From NCBI RefSeq assembly GCF_900109925.1, contig NZ_FOBW01000021.1, positions 1 through 57,199 of the forward strand: a stretch of 57,199 nucleotides of DNA, written 5' to 3'. A program made the translations under genes and the position numbers. Positions 17,369-57,106 of this stretch are shown here, one piece after another. Below the pieces are notes generated by a model that was not told the DNA's origin, did no database searches, and was given only the letters and a program-made list of their open reading frames with translations. This DNA is from Mesobacillus persicus. Lineage in GTDB: Bacteria > Bacillota > Bacilli > Bacillales > Cytobacillaceae. Within the stretch, counting starts at the first letter, position 1; each line of letters starts with the position of its first letter.

Positions 17369-18007
17369 TTACACATGACTTTTGCCGTCATTATTCACAA
17401 TCACAGAAAGTTTTCGCAGAACAACTTTCATCACATGCGCATACTCTTCGTCTCCAAACCACAAGTAGAGAATTCGGTAGTCATTGTAAATATCAAGCAT
17501 GCTGTCGATGAGACTCTTTTTCATGCCTTTTTTTCGCAACTCCTCTTTTTCCGATTTTCGCTTTGAAGAAGTTTGCTTTTTTTCTTCTGGTGCAGATAAA
17601 GCTTTCTTGTCTTTCTTGTCTGTATTCCATAGTAAGCCAAACTTCTTGATGAAAACATCGGCACTCTCGGCGTCTGCGATAAGCGTTAATTCCTCTTCCC
17701 CAGCTTCGAGCCATTCTCCGTCCTTAATACGTGAAAGCTCATAAATGATATCCTCCCAGGAGTCTTCCTTGTAGCGCCAGATTTCCGTTCGGAACCCGAC
17801 GATTTTAAATAAATCGGAGCCATATCCTTTCACCTGGACAACATCACCGAAAAAAAACTTATATTCTATATCAATATGCTCTTTTTCAAGGAGCTTTCCT
17901 TCATATTCATCTAACGGCAATAGGCTAGATTCAAGATACAGCCCTTGACCCTTGTTTATTTCATATACATATAGTCCGTCAAGCCATTTTACATTTGTTA
18001 ATTTGCT
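17369..18007 (-). CDS. Conserved hypothetical with SH3-like part (cassette copy 1)
   Basis: The clear coding part is 183 residues from a TTG at 17918-17920: FFFGDVVQVKGYGSDLFKIVGFR (cannot exceed family proof) looks like an SH3/KOW-like barrel, followed by a charged linker (EKKQTSSKRKSEKEELRKK) and a helical end. The same frame stays open upstream to about 18035 and the extra residues (KWLDGLYVYEINKGQGLYLE) are shared with the second copy at 29.3-30.0 kb, so the true protein is longer, but no ATG/GTG/TTG with a ribosome binding site is visible; the N-terminus may be damaged. Function unknown. Confidence 0.6.
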   Translation of the reverse strand, partial: SKLTNVKWLDGLYVYEINKGQGLYLESSLLPLDEYEGKLLEKEHIDIEYKFFFGDVVQVKGYGSDLFKIVGFRTEIWRYKEDSWEDIIYELSRIKDGEWLEAGEEELTLIADAESADVFIKKFGLLWNTDKKDKKALSAPEEKKQTSSKRKSEKEELRKKGMKKSLIDSMLDIYNDYRILYLWFGDEEYAHVMKVVLRKLSVIVNNDGKSHV

Positions 18008-18065
18008 ATTTTTATTGGTTGTAGAAAAAGTTACCTAAATATATATCCGTTTCGTCCTAAGTACA

Positions 18066-18099
18066 AAAAGAAAACTCGGATACCTAATAGTACCCGAGG
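18066..18099 (-). terminator. Rho-independent terminator
   Basis: CTCGGGTAC-6-GTATCCGAG then TTTTCTTTTT on the minus strand, directly past the 42-residue gene; the duplicate cassette has the same hairpin at 30009-30041. Confidence 0.8.
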
Positions 18100-18228
18100 T
18101 TAGCTTACTTTGTCATTACCCTTTTTATCTTTATCATTTGGCTTTTTAATTTTATTCGTTAATTCAATTAATCCCCTTGCGGCTTGCTCAGCATTAAATG
18201 TTCCCTTTTCTGCGTATTTTACCTTCAT
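18100..18228 (-). CDS. Small conserved protein (42 aa), cassette copy 1
   Basis: A 42-residue protein, MKVKYAEKGTFNAEQAARGL at the start and a charged Lys/Asp tail. RBS GAGGTG 8 bases upstream, terminator just after the stop. A second intact copy at 30042-30170 differs at only five or so residues, while the neighbouring larger gene decayed there, so the small gene seems to be the part kept under selection. Function unknown. Confidence 0.7.
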   Translation of the reverse strand: MKVKYAEKGTFNAEQAARGLIELTNKIKKPNDKDKKGNDKVS

Positions 18229-18445
18229 GATGTGAACACCTCATAGCAAAATATGCGTGAGGTCTCTGTTTTTTATCTTGTCTTATGCATTTTTTTCGAG
18301 GTCCATGTTACAAAGGTTATTACAGAAAGCACAGGTTACTTGAATAAGCTAAAATTACTATGAGCCAAACTATGCAAGGTTTGTGCCATAAATTATCGTT
18401 TGTTATCTTATTAGGAGTAACCTACTCCTTTTTAATTGGTATTTG

Positions 18446-20783: not shown

Positions 20784-22188
<1,405 letters not shown>

Positions 22189-22205: not shown

Positions 22206-22484
22206 TTAACAACAGTCACTTTCATTGCCCTTTAAAACTAATGCTTTCCCATCTTCATTCAGGTCAAGAACCATCCCGTCTATATGCTCTTCTATATTCG
22301 GGTCAACCGCGACCTGAATTTGATTCATAGTTATTACCTTATCACTTACTTCTGGCTCATCCAGAGCCAGTCCAATCTGAGGCTTGCCTCAGCCAAAGCC
22401 AGCAAAGTAAACACGGATGCCTTTTGCCTCTCTATCGTTAAGTAGAGTTTGCAAGAAGTCCCTTGCATCATTCGTGATTTGCAT
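22206..22484 (-). CDS. HesB-like selenoprotein (in-frame TGA read as Sec)
   Basis: 92 residues if TGA at 22389-22391 is read through as residue 32. The frame runs from ATG with AAAGGA 10 bases upstream to TAA: MQITNDARDFLQTLL..., then GIRVYFAGFG-U-GKPQIGLALDEP, ending NESDCC. The TGA sits where IscA/HesB proteins have their first metal-ligand Cys (GGCSG), as in the known HesB-like (seleno)protein family. A 7-bp hairpin CTGGCTC-TGGAT-GAGCCAG at 22352-22370 puts its apical loop 25 bases after the TGA with G at loop position 2, which satisfies the bacterial SECIS rules. Alternatively it is a nonsense mutant. Confidence 0.8.
22352..22370 (-). promoter_or_regulatory. Candidate bacterial SECIS hairpin
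   Basis: Perfect 7-bp stem with a 5-base loop TGGAT inside the HesB-like coding frame, loop starting 25 bases after the in-frame TGA. Stem length, loop size, distance and the G in the first two loop positions match the published bSECIS consensus. Confidence 0.65.
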
Positions 22485-22514
22485 TGTTGTCGTCCTTTCG
22501 ATCTATTATTGATG

Positions 22515-24284
22515 TTATTCTAGGTATGACTTTAACCGCTCATACCCTTTGCGATCTTCATTAATAAGTGGCACGATGGCACACTTCTCTGCCAGTTCCT
22601 TTTCTACTTTAGAAATCCAGGATTCCTCAGCCACAGCCCTCCCTTTTAATACAGGGTCTTGTGTTTTCGTTGCGAAAAGGCTCTGGTTGATGATCCACCA
22701 TTTTGGCGAAATATCAGCACGCTCTAGATCCTTCTGTAATCGGCTTGCCTCCAATACAGGAGTGGCTTCTGCCAATGTTACAATGACGACACTTGTTTCC
22801 TGCGGGTTCCGAAGTCGGGGAAGGAGCTTTTTCGCACTTTCAGGTACTTCTCCTGTCGAGCGGGCAAGTTCTTTGTTATAGGACTGTGCTGCATCTAAGA
22901 GTAATAAGGTATGACCTGTCGGGGCCGTATCAATCACAACAACTTCATCTTCAGACCGTTCCACCACGTCCGCAAAAGCTCGGAAAACAGCAATCTCTTC
23001 TGTACATGGTGAGTTTAAATCTTCTTCTAGATAAGCTAATCCGGCCTCATCAAGACCTTCAGCCGCGTTTGATAAGACTTCTTTTTTATAAGAATCCACC
23101 TCTTGTACAGGGTCAATTCTGCTAATCGTCAACAACTCGCTTTTTTCACTATTACCGAACACGAAGTCCAAATGTGCAGCAGGGTCTGTTGTCGTTAAAT
23201 GCACTTTGTGTCCTTTTTCTACAAGACCCACTGCAATCGCAGAAGCCATTGTGGTTTTCCCAACTCCTCCCTTCCCCATCGTCAATATGACACGAGTTCC
23301 GTTCACAGAGAATTCGTTAATAACATCCTTCAAGTCTGGTAGGTTATGTTCCTTAATCTCCACGTTCTCTTGTGATGCGGGCATTGTGTAATGATTAACA
23401 AAATGGCGAAGGCCATCAAGCCCTGTTAGGGAGTAAGAAACAAACGGTAAGGAAAAGACACCAACCTGTTTTAAGCCTTCCGGAATGTTCTTTATGCTAT
23501 TCTGTTGCCTTTGATAAAAAGAAGTCGAAACCTCATCTTCCGGTACGTAAGTTTTCATTAATCCATTCACAATAAGATATTGGTTCTGAATGCCGATTTC
23601 TTTTAATTCTAATGCGGCTCGATTCGCTTCTAGCAGGGAAGACTCATCCGGTCTTGCAACAAGGACTAATGTTGTCTTTTCAGGGTCAGACAGAGCTTCT
23701 ACTGTTCGACTATAGATTTCTTTCTTTTCCCCCAAGCCGGATAGAGGACCCAGACAAGAAGCTCCATGCGTACTCTCTTCTAAAAATCCGCTCCATGCAG
23801 TTGGTAACTGCAACAATCTTAGCGTATGACCTGTCGGGGCCGTATCAAAAATGATATGATCAAATCCTTCGACAATCTTTGGGTCTGCAAGTAAACTCGT
23901 AAATTCATCGAATGCTGCAATCTCGACTGTACAAGCCCCTGATAGTTGCTCCTCCATTGTTGCTACAACAGACTCTGGAAGGACCCCGCGGTATGGGCCC
24001 ACTACTTTTTCCCGGTATGTGTGGGCAGCTTCTTCCGGATCTAGATTACAAGCAAAGAGGTTTTCTACTTCTGGAATGGGTTTTGGAGTGTTCGTCAAGT
24101 CCACTTCCAATACATCTTGAAGGTTGGATGCCGGATCTGTACTTACGAGCAACACCTTCTTCCCCTCATCAGCAAGTGATACCGCCGTAGCGCACGCTGT
24201 TGAAGTCTTTCCAACGCCGCCTTTTCCTGTAAAGAATATAAACGGAGTATGAACATTCTTCTTTGGATTAAAAGGTTGGAACAT
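22515..24284 (-). CDS. arsA: Arsenical pump-driving ATPase ArsA
   Basis: A 589-residue tandem ATPase that energises ArsB. Two P-loops GKGGVGKT at about residues 20 and 335, two signal motifs DTAPTGHTLRLLQLP and DTAPTGHTLLLLDAA, and the metalloid-binding cysteines in SGACTVEIAAF, GASCLGPL and NSPCTEEIAVF. The gene overlaps or abuts arsD: a GTG at 24293 overlaps the arsD stop (GTGA), while the ATG at 24284 gives the family N-terminus MFQPFNPKKN; I use the latter with low certainty about the start. Confidence 0.95.
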   Translation of the reverse strand: MFQPFNPKKNVHTPFIFFTGKGGVGKTSTACATAVSLADEGKKVLLVSTDPASNLQDVLEVDLTNTPKPIPEVENLFACNLDPEEAAHTYREKVVGPYRGVLPESVVATMEEQLSGACTVEIAAFDEFTSLLADPKIVEGFDHIIFDTAPTGHTLRLLQLPTAWSGFLEESTHGASCLGPLSGLGEKKEIYSRTVEALSDPEKTTLVLVARPDESSLLEANRAALELKEIGIQNQYLIVNGLMKTYVPEDEVSTSFYQRQQNSIKNIPEGLKQVGVFSLPFVSYSLTGLDGLRHFVNHYTMPASQENVEIKEHNLPDLKDVINEFSVNGTRVILTMGKGGVGKTTMASAIAVGLVEKGHKVHLTTTDPAAHLDFVFGNSEKSELLTISRIDPVQEVDSYKKEVLSNAAEGLDEAGLAYLEEDLNSPCTEEIAVFRAFADVVERSEDEVVVIDTAPTGHTLLLLDAAQSYNKELARSTGEVPESAKKLLPRLRNPQETSVVIVTLAEATPVLEASRLQKDLERADISPKWWIINQSLFATKTQDPVLKGRAVAEESWISKVEKELAEKCAIVPLINEDRKGYERLKSYLE

Positions 24285-24289
24285 GCTTC

Positions 24290-24652
24290 TCACTTCTTTC
24301 CTAAAAGATTAAGATTGTTATTCACTTTCTTTTCTTTCAATTCTTCTAAATTTAAATCAAACCACTCAGAAAGCTGCTCGTTCGTAGGGTAACCTCCCAC
24401 AATGACCACTTCTCCGTCTAACATAGTGATTGGTAGGGAATCAGGGCCTTTTTCATGAAGAACTTTCGTTATTTTTTCATTCTCCGCAAACTTTGAAGGT
24501 TCGCTAGCAAGATTATACCGCTTAATATCAAATCCTTTATTCTCTAAAAGAAAGAATGCTGTGGCAACTCTTGTTAACTCAGGATCGACACTTGGCCCAC
24601 AAACACCTGTAGGACAGCAAAGGGCTGGATCAAAGACTTCAACTTTCCTCAT
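24290..24652 (-). CDS. arsD: Arsenic metallochaperone ArsD
   Basis: A 120-residue thioredoxin-fold chaperone that hands As(III) to ArsA and weakly represses the operon. The metalloid site is Cys12-Cys13-Cys18 in LCCPTGVCG. The end of the sequence is helical and loosely conserved. First gene of the arsD-arsA-hesB-phosphatase-trxB operon, with GGGGGA 9 bases before the ATG and an operator-like promoter at 24676-24709. Confidence 0.95.
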   Translation of the reverse strand: MRKVEVFDPALCCPTGVCGPSVDPELTRVATAFFLLENKGFDIKRYNLASEPSKFAENEKITKVLHEKGPDSLPITMLDGEVVIVGGYPTNEQLSEWFDLNLEELKEKKVNNNLNLLGKK

Positions 24653-24830: not shown

Positions 24831-25250
24831 TTATTCACCTGTTTCAGAAAATCGTTTAATCCTGTCTCCTACCTCATCACGAACTCGTTGGAAGAAGGCC
24901 CACTTTTCTTCATCGGTTCCCACCGCTTTAGCTGGATCATCGAAGCCCCAATGTTCCCGTTTAACATGAGGAGGCGTTACCGGACACTTGTCTGCAGCAT
25001 CTCCACATAAAGTCACGACTAAATCAGCATTGTTTAATATCTCAGGGTCGATAATATCAGAAGTTTGATTAGAAATATCAATATCAGCTTCCTTCATAGC
25101 TTTTACTGCATTCGGGTTTAAGCCATGAGCTTCAATTCCCGCACTGTATACGTTCCACTCATCTCCTAAGTATTTCTTTGCCCATCCCTCAGCCATCTGG
25201 CTTCTGCATGAATTGCCTGTACATAAGAAGTAAATTGTTTTTTTAGACAT
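24831..25250 (-). CDS. arsC: Arsenate reductase ArsC (thioredoxin-coupled)
   Basis: A 139-residue LMW-phosphatase-fold reductase of arsenate to arsenite, the same length as B. subtilis ArsC. P-loop CTGNSCRS with Cys10, and the redox pair Cys82/Cys89 in LCGDAADKC at exactly the B. subtilis positions. Reduced by thioredoxin, for which trxB lies in the next operon. 27 bases after arsB; third gene of arsR-arsB-arsC. Confidence 0.97.
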
Positions 25251-25277: not shown

Positions 25278-26576
25278 TTAAGAAATAATTAACAACCATA
25301 GATAGAGACCCACTAATGTAATAAATAGGGTCGGAATCGTAAGAACAATACCTGTTTTAAAATAAGTTCCCCATGAAATTTTCACGCCTTTTAAACTTAA
25401 TACGTGAAGCCACAGCAAGGTTGCAAGTGATCCAATTGGCGTGATTTTTGGTCCTAGGTCAGACCCTATTACATTGGCATAAATTAAAGCCTCTCGTATT
25501 ACACCACTTGTATTCGTATCAGCAATCGCAAGGGCATCAATCATCACCGTCGGCATATTGTTCATTACTGACGAAAGAATGGCTGCAATAAAGCCCATTC
25601 CAATCGTTGCGGCAAATAGACCTTCATCAGCGGTTACCTGAATCACATCGGCTAATATATTCGTTAAGCCTACATTTCTTAATCCGTAAACCACAACATA
25701 CATACCTATGGAGAAAAAGACGATAGCCCAAGGGGCACCTTTAACAACATTGGCTGTTTGAACAGCAGGACTTTTCCTAGCCATTAATAAGAAGAAAATC
25801 GCCACGATGCCGGCAATAAAGGATACAGGGATGCCAATAAATTCACTGGCAAAGTAGCCTACTAAAAGAACAGCTAGAACGACCCAAGACAGTCGAAACA
25901 TTTTAGGATCACGAATGGCCTCATTAGGTCTCTTAAGTTGGGACATATCATAGTTCTTCGGAATACTCTTCCTAAAAAAGAGGTATAAAACTATAATACT
26001 TGCCGCTAACGAGAAAAGATTCGGTACAATCATTCTCGAAGCAAACTCGACAAAACCAATACCGAAAAAGTCCGCAGATACAATGTTGACCAGGTTACTT
26101 ACCACTAATGGAAGCGATGTAGTATCAGCAATAAACCCACTCGCAATGATAAATGGAAACACCATTTTCTCATTAAAGTTCAAATTACGAACCATTGCTA
26201 ACACAATCGGAGTCAAAATAAGCGCAGCCCCGTCATTGGCAAAAAATGCAGCCACTAATGCACCCAGAATGGATACATACACAAACATTCGAACTCCATT
26301 TCCCTTAGCCGCTCTAGCCATATGAAGAGCTGACCATTCAAAGAAACCAATCTCGTCTAAAATAAGCGAGATAATGATAATGGCAATGAACGCTAGTGTG
26401 GCATTCCATACGATGGAGGTTACATCTAGTACATCTTGAAAATCAACCACCCCCACTAGCAAGGCCAGTATGGCTCCCCCGCAAGCCGACCACCCAATGG
26501 ACAATCCTTTTGGCTGCCAGATGACCAGAATGAGTGTAATCAAAAAAATCGCTGAAGCTAAAATCACTTGTGTCAT
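25278..26576 (-). CDS. arsB: Arsenite efflux transporter ArsB
   Basis: A 432-residue ArsB/NhaD-type permease with about twelve membrane helices; [14 protein letters not shown] and the second half [18 protein letters not shown] are the paired signatures of the ion transporter superfamily. It works alone or with ArsA. 15 bases behind arsR, one operon. Start ATG preceded by GAGGAGG. Confidence 0.96.
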
Positions 26577-26591
26577 TTTCTTACCTCCTCA

Positions 26592-26936
26592 TCACTCACA
26601 AGAAATACGCAAGCCTTGTACTTCTAATTCTTTAAGTTTATATTCTTGGCTAGGAAGATGATGGAGTAAAGTTTGGATAATTGGATAATAATCGCTTTGC
26701 TTATTGAGTGAATAAAAAACCCACTGCCCTTTTCTGGCTTCTCGGACGATTCCTACGTCCTTCAATTTTCGAACATGCTGGCTGATAGCCGGCTGGCTGG
26801 TTTTAAAGATTTCAACAAATTCACAGACACAGCAATCATTTGTATCTAATAGCTTTACCATAGTCAAACGTGTTTTATCGCCAAGTAACTTTAAAATAGT
26901 GGCCACTTTATCTAGTTCAACATTCGATACGTTCAT
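26592..26936 (-). CDS. arsR: Arsenic repressor ArsR
   Basis: A 114-residue ArsR-family winged-helix repressor. The metalloid site is in NDCCVCEFV (Cys35, 36, 38), then SQPAISQHVRKL as recognition helix and RKGQWVFYSL as wing. First gene of arsR-arsB-arsC; GGGAGG before the ATG. Its likely operator lies at 26953-26990. Confidence 0.95.
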   Translation of the reverse strand: MNVSNVELDKVATILKLLGDKTRLTMVKLLDTNDCCVCEFVEIFKTSQPAISQHVRKLKDVGIVREARKGQWVFYSLNKQSDYYPIIQTLLHHLPSQEYKLKELEVQGLRISCE

Positions 26937-27819: not shown

Positions 27820-28689
27820 TTAATTTATGTCAGTTAATGATATTGTAAGTTTAATAACTTCAAAATTATAGTTACCTTCTGAATCTTTCTCAAACTCAAA
27901 TGGATAAAACCCTGTTTCATTTCCTTCCATGTACTTCTTCACTTGTGGCAATTGTTTTATATAATTGATGCACCTTGAATTAGAAGGAAAAGAGTCTATA
28001 AAATTGCCTTCTTTATCATATAATTCAGTAACAATTTGGTAAGGACTATTATAACTATTAACCATGTGAATAGAGTTTTCACTATATGTTACCCATTTCA
28101 GATTATCAACGCTTGCATTACTTCGGTTGCAATCAATATGGTTAACAACTGGCTTATTTTCAGGATTAAGAATAAATGCTTCTGCAACTAATCTGTGAAC
28201 CAATAAACGTTTCCTCTTTCCGTCAACAGATATATTAACAGTCCTATAACCACTTGTATTAATACTTTGACTTATAACTTTATTTGTTTTAGAACTAAAA
28301 ACTTCACCGCCTTTACTCACATAATAATTAGTATAGTCTTTAATTTCTTTCCACTCTTCACTTTCCTTTACAAAATTTATTTCAATTTCTTTTCTTTGTT
28401 CTTCTTTCGAACCCCAACCAACATGTTTTAAGTTAGTAAATCTATCATTAGATAAGTTACCATCAATATGTTTTATATGCTCTGGAAACCAAACTCCCTT
28501 ATTCGCAAAGGAATTATACACGATTACACAAACATATTCTTCTTTGTATCTGAAACCAACTTTCAATCGAACTTTGTTATAACCACTTTTAACATTTTTC
28601 TGTTTCACAACATTATCGGTTTTAACGTGTCTTACTTCACCTTTTTCATTTACAATGTAATCATCGTAACCTTTAACAATTTTCCACAT
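27820..28689 (-). CDS. NUMOD4/HNH homing-type endonuclease
   Basis: A 289-residue protein: two NUMOD4-like repeats (WKIVKGYDDYIVNEKGEVR at residue 1 and WKEIKDYTNYYVSKGGEVF near 105), an HNH_3 domain with VHRLVAEAFI, VNHIDCNRSNASVDNLKWVT, and a C-terminal NUMOD1-like DNA-binding part (LYDKEGNFIDSFPSNSRCINYI). The HNH catalytic residues are present. Such enzymes are usually encoded in introns or phages; here it is free-standing next to a broken toxin gene. AT-rich compared with neighbours, suggesting transfer. ATG at 28689 has GGGG 9 bases upstream. Confidence 0.88.
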   Translation of the reverse strand: MWKIVKGYDDYIVNEKGEVRHVKTDNVVKQKNVKSGYNKVRLKVGFRYKEEYVCVIVYNSFANKGVWFPEHIKHIDGNLSNDRFTNLKHVGWGSKEEQRKEIEINFVKESEEWKEIKDYTNYYVSKGGEVFSSKTNKVISQSINTSGYRTVNISVDGKRKRLLVHRLVAEAFILNPENKPVVNHIDCNRSNASVDNLKWVTYSENSIHMVNSYNSPYQIVTELYDKEGNFIDSFPSNSRCINYIKQLPQVKKYMEGNETGFYPFEFEKDSEGNYNFEVIKLTISLTDIN

Positions 28690-29307
28690 ATACAATACCC
28701 CAATTAGTTTAATTATCTACCTCTTAATCGACCACTTTTATTAATCGTGAAACCGATTTTCTTTAAGATACTTTCAAATTTAAAAAGTTTTCGTTTGCAA
28801 TTTTCCCGAGGTTTAAATGCTTCCCCTATAACTTTAGTTCAATCTCATATTACCTTTTTTGGAAAGTATTTGGAATGAATTTCTTCTTACACTAGCCTGA
28901 CCCGTTAGCTTAAGTACATTCATGCACAAAGTCGCCTAAAAATGACCATTTATTGCACAGTATAAGTCTACTATGCATTTAGAAAATGAGAATTTTCTTA
29001 TTCCATATTACGCCCCGTTAGTGTAAGTACAATCCTTAACGCCTTTAATGTAAACATATAAAAGGATGGAACCATTGTAATCCCATCCTTAAGACTCTTT
29101 CACTTTTATTTTAAATCCATTTCAGCCCCGCTTTGGCCAAAAACCAAAGGACCTTGTATTAGCCAACTTAAAACGGCCACAAGAGAATTGTTCTTTCTAT
29201 TCCTTTGTGAGTTGCTGTTAGTTTTTCAACAATTCACCTGTCTTCAACCATTATTAACCCTTTTTTTCACTGGACTAATTTCACTCTAAGATGTTATCAG
29301 CTAGTTG
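28690..29307. other. Intergenic region with short repeated motifs
   Basis: About 600 bases without a gene. CCCGTTAGCTTAAGTAC (28901), CCCGTTAGTGTAAGTAC (29013) and the looser CCCGATAGTTTAAGTG (27747) are copies of one short motif. A hairpin AAGGATGG-12-CCCATCCTT lies at 29062-29091. I see no reading frame worth calling. Confidence 0.4.
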
Positions 29308-29965
29308 CTAATGCTTAAACATGACTTTATCATCATTATTTACAATCATAGCAAGCTTTCGTAACACGACTTTCATCACATCGGCATACTCTTCATCTCC
29401 AAACCACAAGTATAGAATTCGGTAATCATTGTAAATATCAAGTATGCTGTCGATTAGACTCTTTTTCATGCCCCTTTTTCCGCAACTCCCTCTTTTTCCG
29501 ATTTTTTTCTCGACGAAGATTGCTTTTCATCCTAATGGAGCAGGTAGACTTTTTTTGTCTGTGTTCCACAATAAGCCAAACTTCTTGATGAAAACATCGG
29601 CACTTTCGGCGTCTGCGATAAGCGTTAATTCCTCTTCCCCGGCTTCGAGCCATTCTCCGTCTTTAATACGCGAAAGCTCATAAATGATATCCTCCCAGGA
29701 GTCTTCCTTGTAGCGGCAAATTCCGGTTCGGAATCCGACGATTTTAAATAAATCGGAGCCATATCCTTTCACCTGGGACAACATCACCGAAAAAAAAACT
29801 TATATTCTATATCAAATATGCTCTTTTTCAAGGAGCTTTCCTTCATATTCATCTAACGGCAATAGGCTAGAAGATTCTAGATACAGCCCTTGACCCTTAT
29901 TGATATCCTATTCGTACAAGCCATCGAGCCATTTCACGTTGTTAATTTGTTATTTTTATTGGTTG
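29308..29965 (-). pseudogene. Decayed cassette copy 2 of the hypothetical at 17.4-18.0 kb
   Basis: The minus strand matches 17369-18007 along its length: KWLDGLY, FFGD, VKGYGSDLFKIVGFR, WEDIIYELSRIKDGEWLEAG and the C-terminus SLIDSILDIYNDYRILYLWF. One-base insertions near 29775, 29799 and 29815, a stop in the N-terminal part and changes in the linker break the frame at least three times, so no full protein is made. Confidence 0.85.
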
Positions 29966-30008
29966 TTAGGGCAAAAAGACGCTAATTAAAATCCGAGGTC
30001 GTTTATAC

Positions 30009-30041
30009 AAAAAGAAAACTCGGTCCTAAAAGGACCCGAGT
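30009..30041 (-). terminator. Rho-independent terminator
   Basis: CTCGGGTCCTTTTAGGACCGAG followed by TTTTCTTTTT; counterpart of 18066-18099. Confidence 0.8.
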
Positions 30042-30170
30042 TTAGCTTACTTTGTCATTACCCTTTTTATCTTTATCATTTGATTTTTTAATTTTATTCG
30101 TTAATTCAATTAATCCCCTTGCGGCTTTCTCAGCATTAAACGTGCCTTTTTCTGCATAGTTAACTCTCAT
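30042..30170 (-). CDS. Small conserved protein (42 aa), cassette copy 2
   Basis: Intact copy of 18100-18228 with MRVNYAEKGTFNAEKAARGL at the start and an identical charged end. RBS GAGGTG and terminator are conserved too. It stayed open although the gene behind it broke, which suggests it has its own role. Confidence 0.7.
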   Translation of the reverse strand: MRVNYAEKGTFNAEKAARGLIELTNKIKKSNDKDKKGNDKVS

Positions 30171-30295
30171 GATGTAAACACCTCATTGGAGAATATGCGT
30201 GAGGCCTCTGGTTTTTATCTTGTCTTATGTTCTTTCTTTAAGAAAACTGGAAGTAATTCGTTTGGTGATTTTAAATATTTTAAAAGGAGACACAA

Positions 30296-55921: not shown

Positions 55922-57106
55922 ATCGAGTAGGAGAATAATCATTAATTGATTATCCGACCTCTCACACCACCGTACATACGGATCCGTATACGGCGGTTCA
56001 ATTTCATACTAAACATGTACTTTTTTGTAATGCTGGACACAAGAGATTAGCCCGAAACTAGCTAGTCTCTTATTTGTAATTGTCGTTGTAAGTACCCACG
56101 AGTAGGCAATACGGACTGCCCCTTTACTTGTATGGCTATATTTATAAGCGTTGTATCTTTCCATTCCAAGCTTGATTAGGTTCTTCCTTCGATTCTTGGC
56201 TGTTTTCCATTTCTTCCATATGCATGTTCTCAGCCGAACTCTTGTATGGGTGTCTATCTTACCTAGCACGCTTTTCATGTAGCCAATTTTGAAGTAATTT
56301 ACCCATCCTCGTATGACTTGGTTGATTCGTTCAACCTGAAACTTCGTTTCAACACTCCAATTCTTCCTCGTTAAAAGTTTCAGTTTGTATTTGAAGTTTT
56401 CTACTGACTTTTGGTGTGGTTTTGCCTTGTATAAGTCGGCTTGATAATCTTTAAAGAAGCCAAAACCCAGAAATTTCATATTAGGGTCATCTGGTCTTGT
56501 CACTTTCGTCTTTGTGCTATTGACAATCAAACCCAACTTTTCTTCGATCAACTTCGTCACTGACCTCATTACTCGTTTCGCCGCCATCTCGCTTTTGACC
56601 ATAATAATACAGTCATCCGCATATCTTGCGAATCGGAGCCCACGCTTTTCAAGTTCTATATCCAGTTCGTTAAGCATAATGTTACTAAGTAGCGGAGATA
56701 GGTTTCCGCCTTGAGGAGTTCCTATGACTGTTTCTTTATATTCCTCATCGATTTGCACACCACTTACTAGGAATTTACGGATGAGTGAAATGACATCCCC
56801 ATCATCGACAGTTTTTGATACGAGATTCATCAATCTATCATGATTTACTGTGTCGAAGAAACGTTCTAAGTCAATATCTACAATCCATTCATGACCATCA
56901 TTTAGATACTCTAGAGTTTGTATGATAGCCATCTCGGCATACCGGTTAGGCCTAAATCCGTAGCTATAATCACTAAACTTCTTATCAAACATAGGTGTAA
57001 GGACTTGTGCTATCGCTTGTTGAATAACTCTATCTTTGACCGTCGGGATGCCTAAGAGCCTTATCCCACCATTTGGTTTAGGAATTTCAACCCTTAGGAC
57101 GGGTTA
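55922..57106 (-). mobile_element. 5'-truncated group II intron
   Basis: Minus-strand sequence runs from the reverse transcriptase gene into a domain V-like hairpin (ACCGCCGTATACGG-ATCC-GTATGTACGGTGGT, about 55960-55995) and domain VI, ending CCTACTCGAT at 55922, a typical intron 3' end. The 5' ribozyme domains and N-terminal codons of the protein are missing and the sequence changes abruptly at about 57106, so the element cannot splice or move on its own. Confidence 0.75.
56009..57103 (-). pseudogene. ltrA: Group II intron reverse transcriptase/maturase, N-terminus lost
   Basis: The longest clean frame begins at 56992, but coding is continuous up to about 57103 (RVEIPKPNGGIRLLGIPTVK). RT motifs: YGFRPNRYAEMAIIQTLEYL, VDIDLERFFDTVNHD, IGTPQGGNLSPLLSNIMLNEL, the catalytic FARYADDCII, then maturase (X) domain KKLKLLTRKNWS to the end. 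About 70-100 residues of the N-terminus of an LtrA-like protein (normally about 420) are missing at the truncation point. Confidence 0.85.

Follow-up and report, generated by a model that had tools for sequence, protein, structure and literature searches.

The window analysed here is a stretch of 57,199 nucleotides from Mesobacillus persicus (contig NZ_FOBW01000021.1), which carries on its minus strand an arsenic-resistance operon with the order arsR-arsB-arsC-arsD-arsA-hesB-phosphatase-trxB. Similarity to annotated neighbours points to an arsR regulator (26592..26936), the arsenite efflux pump gene arsB (25278..26576), arsC for a thioredoxin-type arsenate reductase (24831..25250) and the thioredoxin reductase gene trxB (20784..21734), as well as, by likeness to annotated ArsD neighbours, to arsD (24290..24652), encoding an arsenite chaperone in which Cys12, Cys13 and Cys18 are present. 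The pump ATPase gene arsA (22515..24293) scores 856 bits with TIGR04291, over the cut-off, and the dual-specificity phosphatase gene (21760..22188), comparable to orf8 of the CDB3 ars1 operon, gives 34.5 bits with PF00782 against a cut-off of 33.5. A second arsR, an ArsP-type permease gene and a small thioredoxin gene follow trxB.

Between arsA and the phosphatase gene lies a hesB-type gene (22206..22484, minus strand), the putative selenoprotein gene considered in this work, whose ATG is found 30 nt after the arsA stop and whose end is 17 nt from the phosphatase gene. A first-pass annotation of this DNA, with the strand unstated, had described a 93-codon frame broken only by a TGA at codon 32, and this is indeed the structure on the minus strand, where 92 residues plus TAA are interrupted a single time, by the TGA at 22389..22391; the plus-strand reading of the same segment contains stops. 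The likely ribosome binding site, AAAGGA (22493..22498), stands 8 nt before the ATG. Read through as selenocysteine, the TGA falls in the context YFAGFG-U-GKPQIGL, and the chain ends in two Cys codons, C91 and C92 (22209..22214).

The ars region is flanked by direct repeats of 226, 69 and 214 nt (94, 80 and 89% identical; window positions 17612-18296 and 29551-30238, about 11.94 kb apart), which look as if the ars block had arrived with a duplicated flank. An HNH/NUMOD4 endonuclease-like gene is present upstream of the operon (27820-28695), and a group II intron match was found on the minus strand at 55922-55998.

Recoding of the in-frame TGA

Just downstream of the TGA, folding and conservation mark a SECIS-type hairpin (22352..22370, minus strand) of sequence CUGGCUC-UGGAU-GAGCCAG, with a 7-bp stem and, 25 nt from the UGA, the loop UGGAU, whose second and third bases are both G, in agreement with the hairpin proposed in the first-pass annotation. 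The 63-nt fold has an energy of -18.6 kcal/mol (z -2.5), and none of 200 shuffles was equally stable. Nine other TGA sequences folded at the same site gave z values from -0.4 to -2.1, less striking by energy, so that the case for the hairpin rests on its conservation. When the whole window was scanned for a TGA with the frame open on both sides and a SECIS-like hairpin, three candidates emerged, among which hesB scored highest; one other lies antisense to arsA.

Matches to the protein occur in at least 116 of the 201 genomes searched, with none found among phages. The homologue set was drawn from 140 match regions (L052-L191, among the matches listed) and four plasmid records; 32 further regions, centred on ArsA, were also covered. 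One region with TAA at codon 32 (L065) and four broken or partial ones (L123, L176, L177, L179) were dropped before the 142-row set was made, and two plasmid records that repeat genome rows (L192, L195) were left out of the 140-row counts and of the tree. Among the matches listed, the homologous codon is TGA in 124 and Cys in 16 of the 140 homologues. When the hairpin register (25 nt from UGA to loop, 5-nt loop, seven stem positions) was scored in the TGA sequences listed, 100, 18 and 6 of the 124 kept 7, 6 and 5 stem pairs, respectively; counting the 113 distinct ones among these matches, at least six of the seven pairs are kept in 107, in one register, and the loop opens with TGGA in all 113. 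Cys sequences form at most four pairs in 15 of 16 cases and six in the remaining one (L168). A chance hairpin imposed by a constrained peptide was ruled out, since synonymous recoding of the same peptides gave at least six of seven pairs in just 18% of trials and codon 41 is CTG in 124/124 TGA rows versus 0/16 Cys rows among the matches listed. Covariation in the stem is real but modest, with 96.2% of cells paired against a shuffled mean of 92.1% and none of 1000 shuffles as high. The six-pair Cys row falls among TGA rows in the tree, and its genome (G145) gave no SelA match, which suggests that its hairpin may be a SECIS remnant, such as the available text of PMC1794560 describes for other Cys proteins.

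The region after the TGA also behaves as coding sequence. From codon 47 onward, dN/dS lies between 0 and 0.33 in 13 of 15 pairs (two pairs were saturated), which argues that this part is used as protein. For the window copy itself, in which the first-pass annotation had named decay signs as a point against the reading, comparison with two relatives shows purifying selection after the TGA, and two more comparisons were saturated.

The same annotation had proposed a search for the selenocysteine machinery, and every component looked for turned up in the assembly (40 contigs, 99.99% complete): SelA (498 bits), SelB and SelD, both over their cut-offs, and one tRNA-Sec over the gathering score, on which ARAGORN agrees. 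The selD gene (L018, G000:C28:288762-289688) has an in-frame TGA of its own, so that one or more additional selenoproteins are probably produced. Among the matches listed, 96 of the 97 genomes that carry the TGA form encode a full-length SelA (E < 1e-100), the exception being G110, in which a SelA fragment alone was found. Judging from these comparisons, it is very highly probable that the hairpin downstream directs the insertion of selenocysteine at UGA codon 32, and the hesB-type gene almost certainly encodes a selenoprotein.

The TGA and the hairpin recur across many genera. In a scan of named genomes, of which the best 80 of 102 matching loci were considered, all 79 that could be classified (L243 excepted) have the TGA, and 43 are ars-linked; among these best 80 of 102, the hosts include Mesobacillus (with M. 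selenatarsenatis SF-1), Cytobacillus, Neobacillus, Robertmurraya, Rossellomorea, Peribacillus, Fictibacillus and others. Operons of the same type with the predicted Sec form also occur on plasmids of Cytobacillus. None of the five such records found shows an annotated gene at the match in the PLSDB gene tables, which are incomplete, and the two records examined (L192 and L309) both have TGA at codon 32. On several plasmids, Cys forms are labelled 'adhesin', a label that looks like a misannotation; two of them (L308, 2539-2820, and L310, 6001-6285) have the motif GCCGP. A vicinal Cys pair replaces U-G in 10 of 12 ars-linked Cys rows (L190, L193 and L194 among them) and in the 13 Cys forms that were reread or recovered by profile in the ArsA survey, perhaps as two thiols standing in for one selenol.

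Fold and family of the predicted protein

The protein matches PF01521 (Fe-S_biosyn) with 37.0 bits, over the gathering cut-off of 26.3. An AlphaFold2 model built from a 45-sequence alignment has a mean pLDDT of 85, its least sure part being the last two residues (mean pLDDT 58). A Foldseek search with this model returned 1r94 (E 9.1e-06), 1s98 (1.0e-05) and 2d2a (6.7e-04), and E. coli IscA, IscA with [2Fe-2S] and SufA are among the top-ranking solved structures; the predicted fold is thus that of the A-type Fe-S carriers. In profile alignments to HI1723 and AQ_1857, the putative Sec32 falls on the first conserved Cys of the fold, in line with the first-pass proposal that the TGA replaces the metal-ligand Cys of the IscA/HesB fold while the CC end is kept. 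In classical A-type carriers the remaining ligands are those of a C-terminal CxC. The window protein shares the predicted fold and the position of the first conserved Cys with IscA, SufA and ErpA, but its first ligand would be Sec and a CC at the very end takes the place of the CxC; across the homologues, this place is likewise held by a terminal CC or a single C.

HesB-like selenoproteins had been listed by 2006 at the latest (available text of PMC1794560), and a 2016 survey counted 90 of them in 86 organisms (PMC5029168, as far as its accessible text goes). The window protein resembles the curated families TIGR01911 and NF038090 in being a small relative of A-type carriers in which one site is either Sec or Cys. 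However, it scores below both cut-offs (45.1 bits against 66.35, and 44.7 against 85), it lies in an ars operon, and its motif is UGKP, not the UxGP given for HesB-like selenoproteins in the part of PMC13188914 at hand. Many relatives have UGGP, and each of the 16 sequences in alignment A1 hits both family models at E <= 0.001. In the broad sense, a HesB-like selenoprotein is the class that suits it, given the in-frame UGA at the first-Cys position, the SECIS-type hairpin and the Sec machinery of the genome.

Linkage to arsenic genes

The operon context is itself not new. Bacillus sp. CDB3 ars1 is an arsRYCDAT-orf7-orf8 operon in which orf7 is HesB-like and orf8 a phosphatase, and B. cereus ATCC 10987 has a similar one, according to the available text of PMC4562236. 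The window operon is of this type, joining a HesB-like gene with arsDA and a dual-specificity phosphatase gene; the likeness to orf7 is one of description, and whereas the B. arachidis operon examined has Cys, the window gene has a predicted Sec. The novelty that the first-pass annotation had assigned to a HesB-like gene built into an arsDA operon therefore holds for the Sec form there and for its breadth, the gene in such an operon being already known. No word beginning with 'selen' occurs in the available text of PMC4562236, nor does 'seleno' in that of PMC5481582, and the literature searched, as far as its text was accessible, held no report of a HesB-like selenoprotein combined with an ars operon, although priority is not certain.

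As anticipated in the first-pass annotation, relatives in other ars operons have either TGA or Cys at codon 32. A survey centred on ArsA yielded 73 loci over the cut-off in 67 of 201 genomes, and 54 of them are followed, on the same strand and at no more than 4 kb, by a HesB gene. Thirty-one carry the TGA form, all 31 in genomes with full SelA, and 23 a Cys form (9 with SelA, 14 without), these 23 being made up of ten from the first count, three that had initially been recorded as lacking a stop and were reread as Cys, and ten recovered by profile. At the remaining 19 loci no HesB gene was found in this interval (16 with SelA, 3 without; that of G061 ends at a contig edge). The Sec form goes with the Sec trait (Fisher p 2.5e-7, with kinship ignored), yet genomes bearing the trait may use Cys.

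Neighbouring ars genes were recognised by similarity to the proteins of the window, and those lying in the read-through frame of hesB can be missed, so that the ars counts are lower bounds. The commonest companion of ars-linked hesB genes is arsC, present at 55 of 59 loci (47/47 with TGA and 8/12 with Cys), and ArsA is encoded at 43 of the 59. Sixteen TGA loci consist of a regulator, a pump, arsC and hesB, with no arsA or arsD found, which suggests that the partner of the HesB protein is not ArsA alone; in 15 of them arsC directly precedes hesB, and in the other a phosphatase gene lies between the two. On the other hand, for 77 of the 124 TGA homologues among the matches listed no ars gene was found within 4 kb on the same strand, some adjoining spoVR and rhodanese-like genes and others putative tungstate-type ABC transporter genes. 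The base function of the family is therefore not arsenic-specific, and As(III) cannot be its sole concern. A terminal CC is found in 45 of 47 ars-linked TGA forms versus 40 of the 77 others among the matches listed. The link between this ending and the ars context (Fisher p 8e-8) was set aside as inflated by near-copies, just five independent pairs lying on supported branches.

The tree is based on 92 columns, and many of its forks are unresolved. The window row belongs to a clade (SH-aLRT 97) of eight rows, every one of them ars-linked and with TGA. A second ars block in the same genome (L052, G000:C17:33000-47000) is an arsRBCDA segment of about 4.5 kb between spoVR and another predicted Sec-HesB gene. 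Its hesB groups with those of three congeners and not with the window clade, and no ars genes were found at the equivalent place in these congeners, where the flanks are colinear and spoVR directly precedes hesB. The simpler reading is that the ars block joined a pre-existing hesB, because a different clade, assigned to Cytobacillus from its named records, has spoVR near hesB at ten loci as well, or else the block would have been lost in the three congeners. Over the whole tree, the grouping of TGA forms with ars genes requires 15 changes, at least five of these, whether gains or losses, being forced by supported branches.

Possible roles in arsenic handling

From gene order, we infer a role in the handling of arsenic. 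The best explanation of the whole, to which we would give a nearly even chance, is that the gene encodes a 92-residue selenoprotein of A-type fold, produced from the ars operon, whose Sec32 and Cys91-Cys92 take As(III). In the proposed geometry, the selenol and the terminal pair would form a soft three-ligand site, and three soft ligands suit As(III). ArsD, with its three soft ligands Cys12, 13 and 18 (available text of PMC4562236), would work in a like manner: it is another small protein of the same operon, present in the window too, to which no sequence relation is claimed. The HesB protein would probably receive As(III) on its formation by ArsC, or else ahead of ArsD/ArsA and the pump, and would pass it on or hold it, and the TrxB/thioredoxin pair would keep the selenol and the thiols reduced. 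Considered apart, the handling of As(III) by Sec32 and the Cys pair is our preferred but tentative mechanism, slightly short of the whole in our estimation. Against it stand the 77 TGA homologues apart from ars genes, the 19 of 73 ArsA loci at which no HesB gene was found, and the low confidence of the model at its C-terminus. The first-pass suggestion of a Sec-dependent step in arsenic handling survives in its link to arsenic genes, but 'Sec-dependent' is too strong, since the same operon position is occupied by a Cys form at 23 loci, nine of which belong to genomes with SelA.

A protein of this fold could instead still carry or repair Fe-S clusters, the Sec making its site more resistant to arsenite or to reoxidation, and be included in the operon because arsenite damages Fe-S enzymes. 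The A-type carrier fold itself agrees with such a role, as do the 77 TGA rows outside ars operons (versus 47 inside), where a general Fe-S function would fit. We regard it as a serious rival, though an unlikely one, as the chain ends in CC or a single C and lacks the classical C-terminal CxC, and the presence of the gene at 54 of 73 ArsA loci is more specific than general repair suggests. Somewhat less probable still, but likewise a serious rival, is a redox partner, a selenol/thiol reductase cooperating with ArsC and TrxB, whose substrates might be, for instance, arsenate-reductase intermediates or the peroxides of arsenic stress. The trxB gene of the window operon and the arsC found at every one of the 47 ars-linked TGA loci speak for this activity, and a review holds most uncharacterised selenoproteins to be likely redox proteins (PMC13188914, available text); but the fold is not thioredoxin-like, no arsC was found at 4 of the 12 ars-linked Cys loci, and trxB is near, on the same strand, at just 7 of the 31 TGA loci beside ArsA. 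A broken gene, with the TGA as a plain stop and a 31-residue fragment as product, is extremely improbable and was rejected, for the TGA, the hairpin and the coding selection downstream (dN/dS) are conserved and the genome has full Sec machinery, even though one relative (L065 in G038) has TAA at this codon and has lost most of arsA. That copy (G038:C2, around 6974) is a relic whose genome still has SelA.

Returning to As(III) binding by Sec32 and the Cys pair, its extension to the whole group is more doubtful than the assignment for the window protein. An A-type carrier fold would have given rise, possibly on more than one occasion, to a selenium-based arsenite handler, in which Sec32 and Cys91-Cys92 bind the As(III) released by ArsC and pass it to the pump; a large group of Bacillaceae would then depend in part on the supply of selenium for their arsenic resistance, with the Cys version mostly in relatives without the Sec trait.

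In any case, the finding joins selenium biology and arsenic detoxification, usually treated apart, and hints at a use of selenium in arsenic handling by some relatives of Bacillus. The gene is easily missed by annotation, as in the Cytobacillus plasmid records that show no gene at the match while Cys relatives are annotated. The division of Sec and Cys forms by the Sec trait offers ready natural comparisons, and if Sec is a metalloid ligand in these proteins, it would have a role outside redox catalysis.
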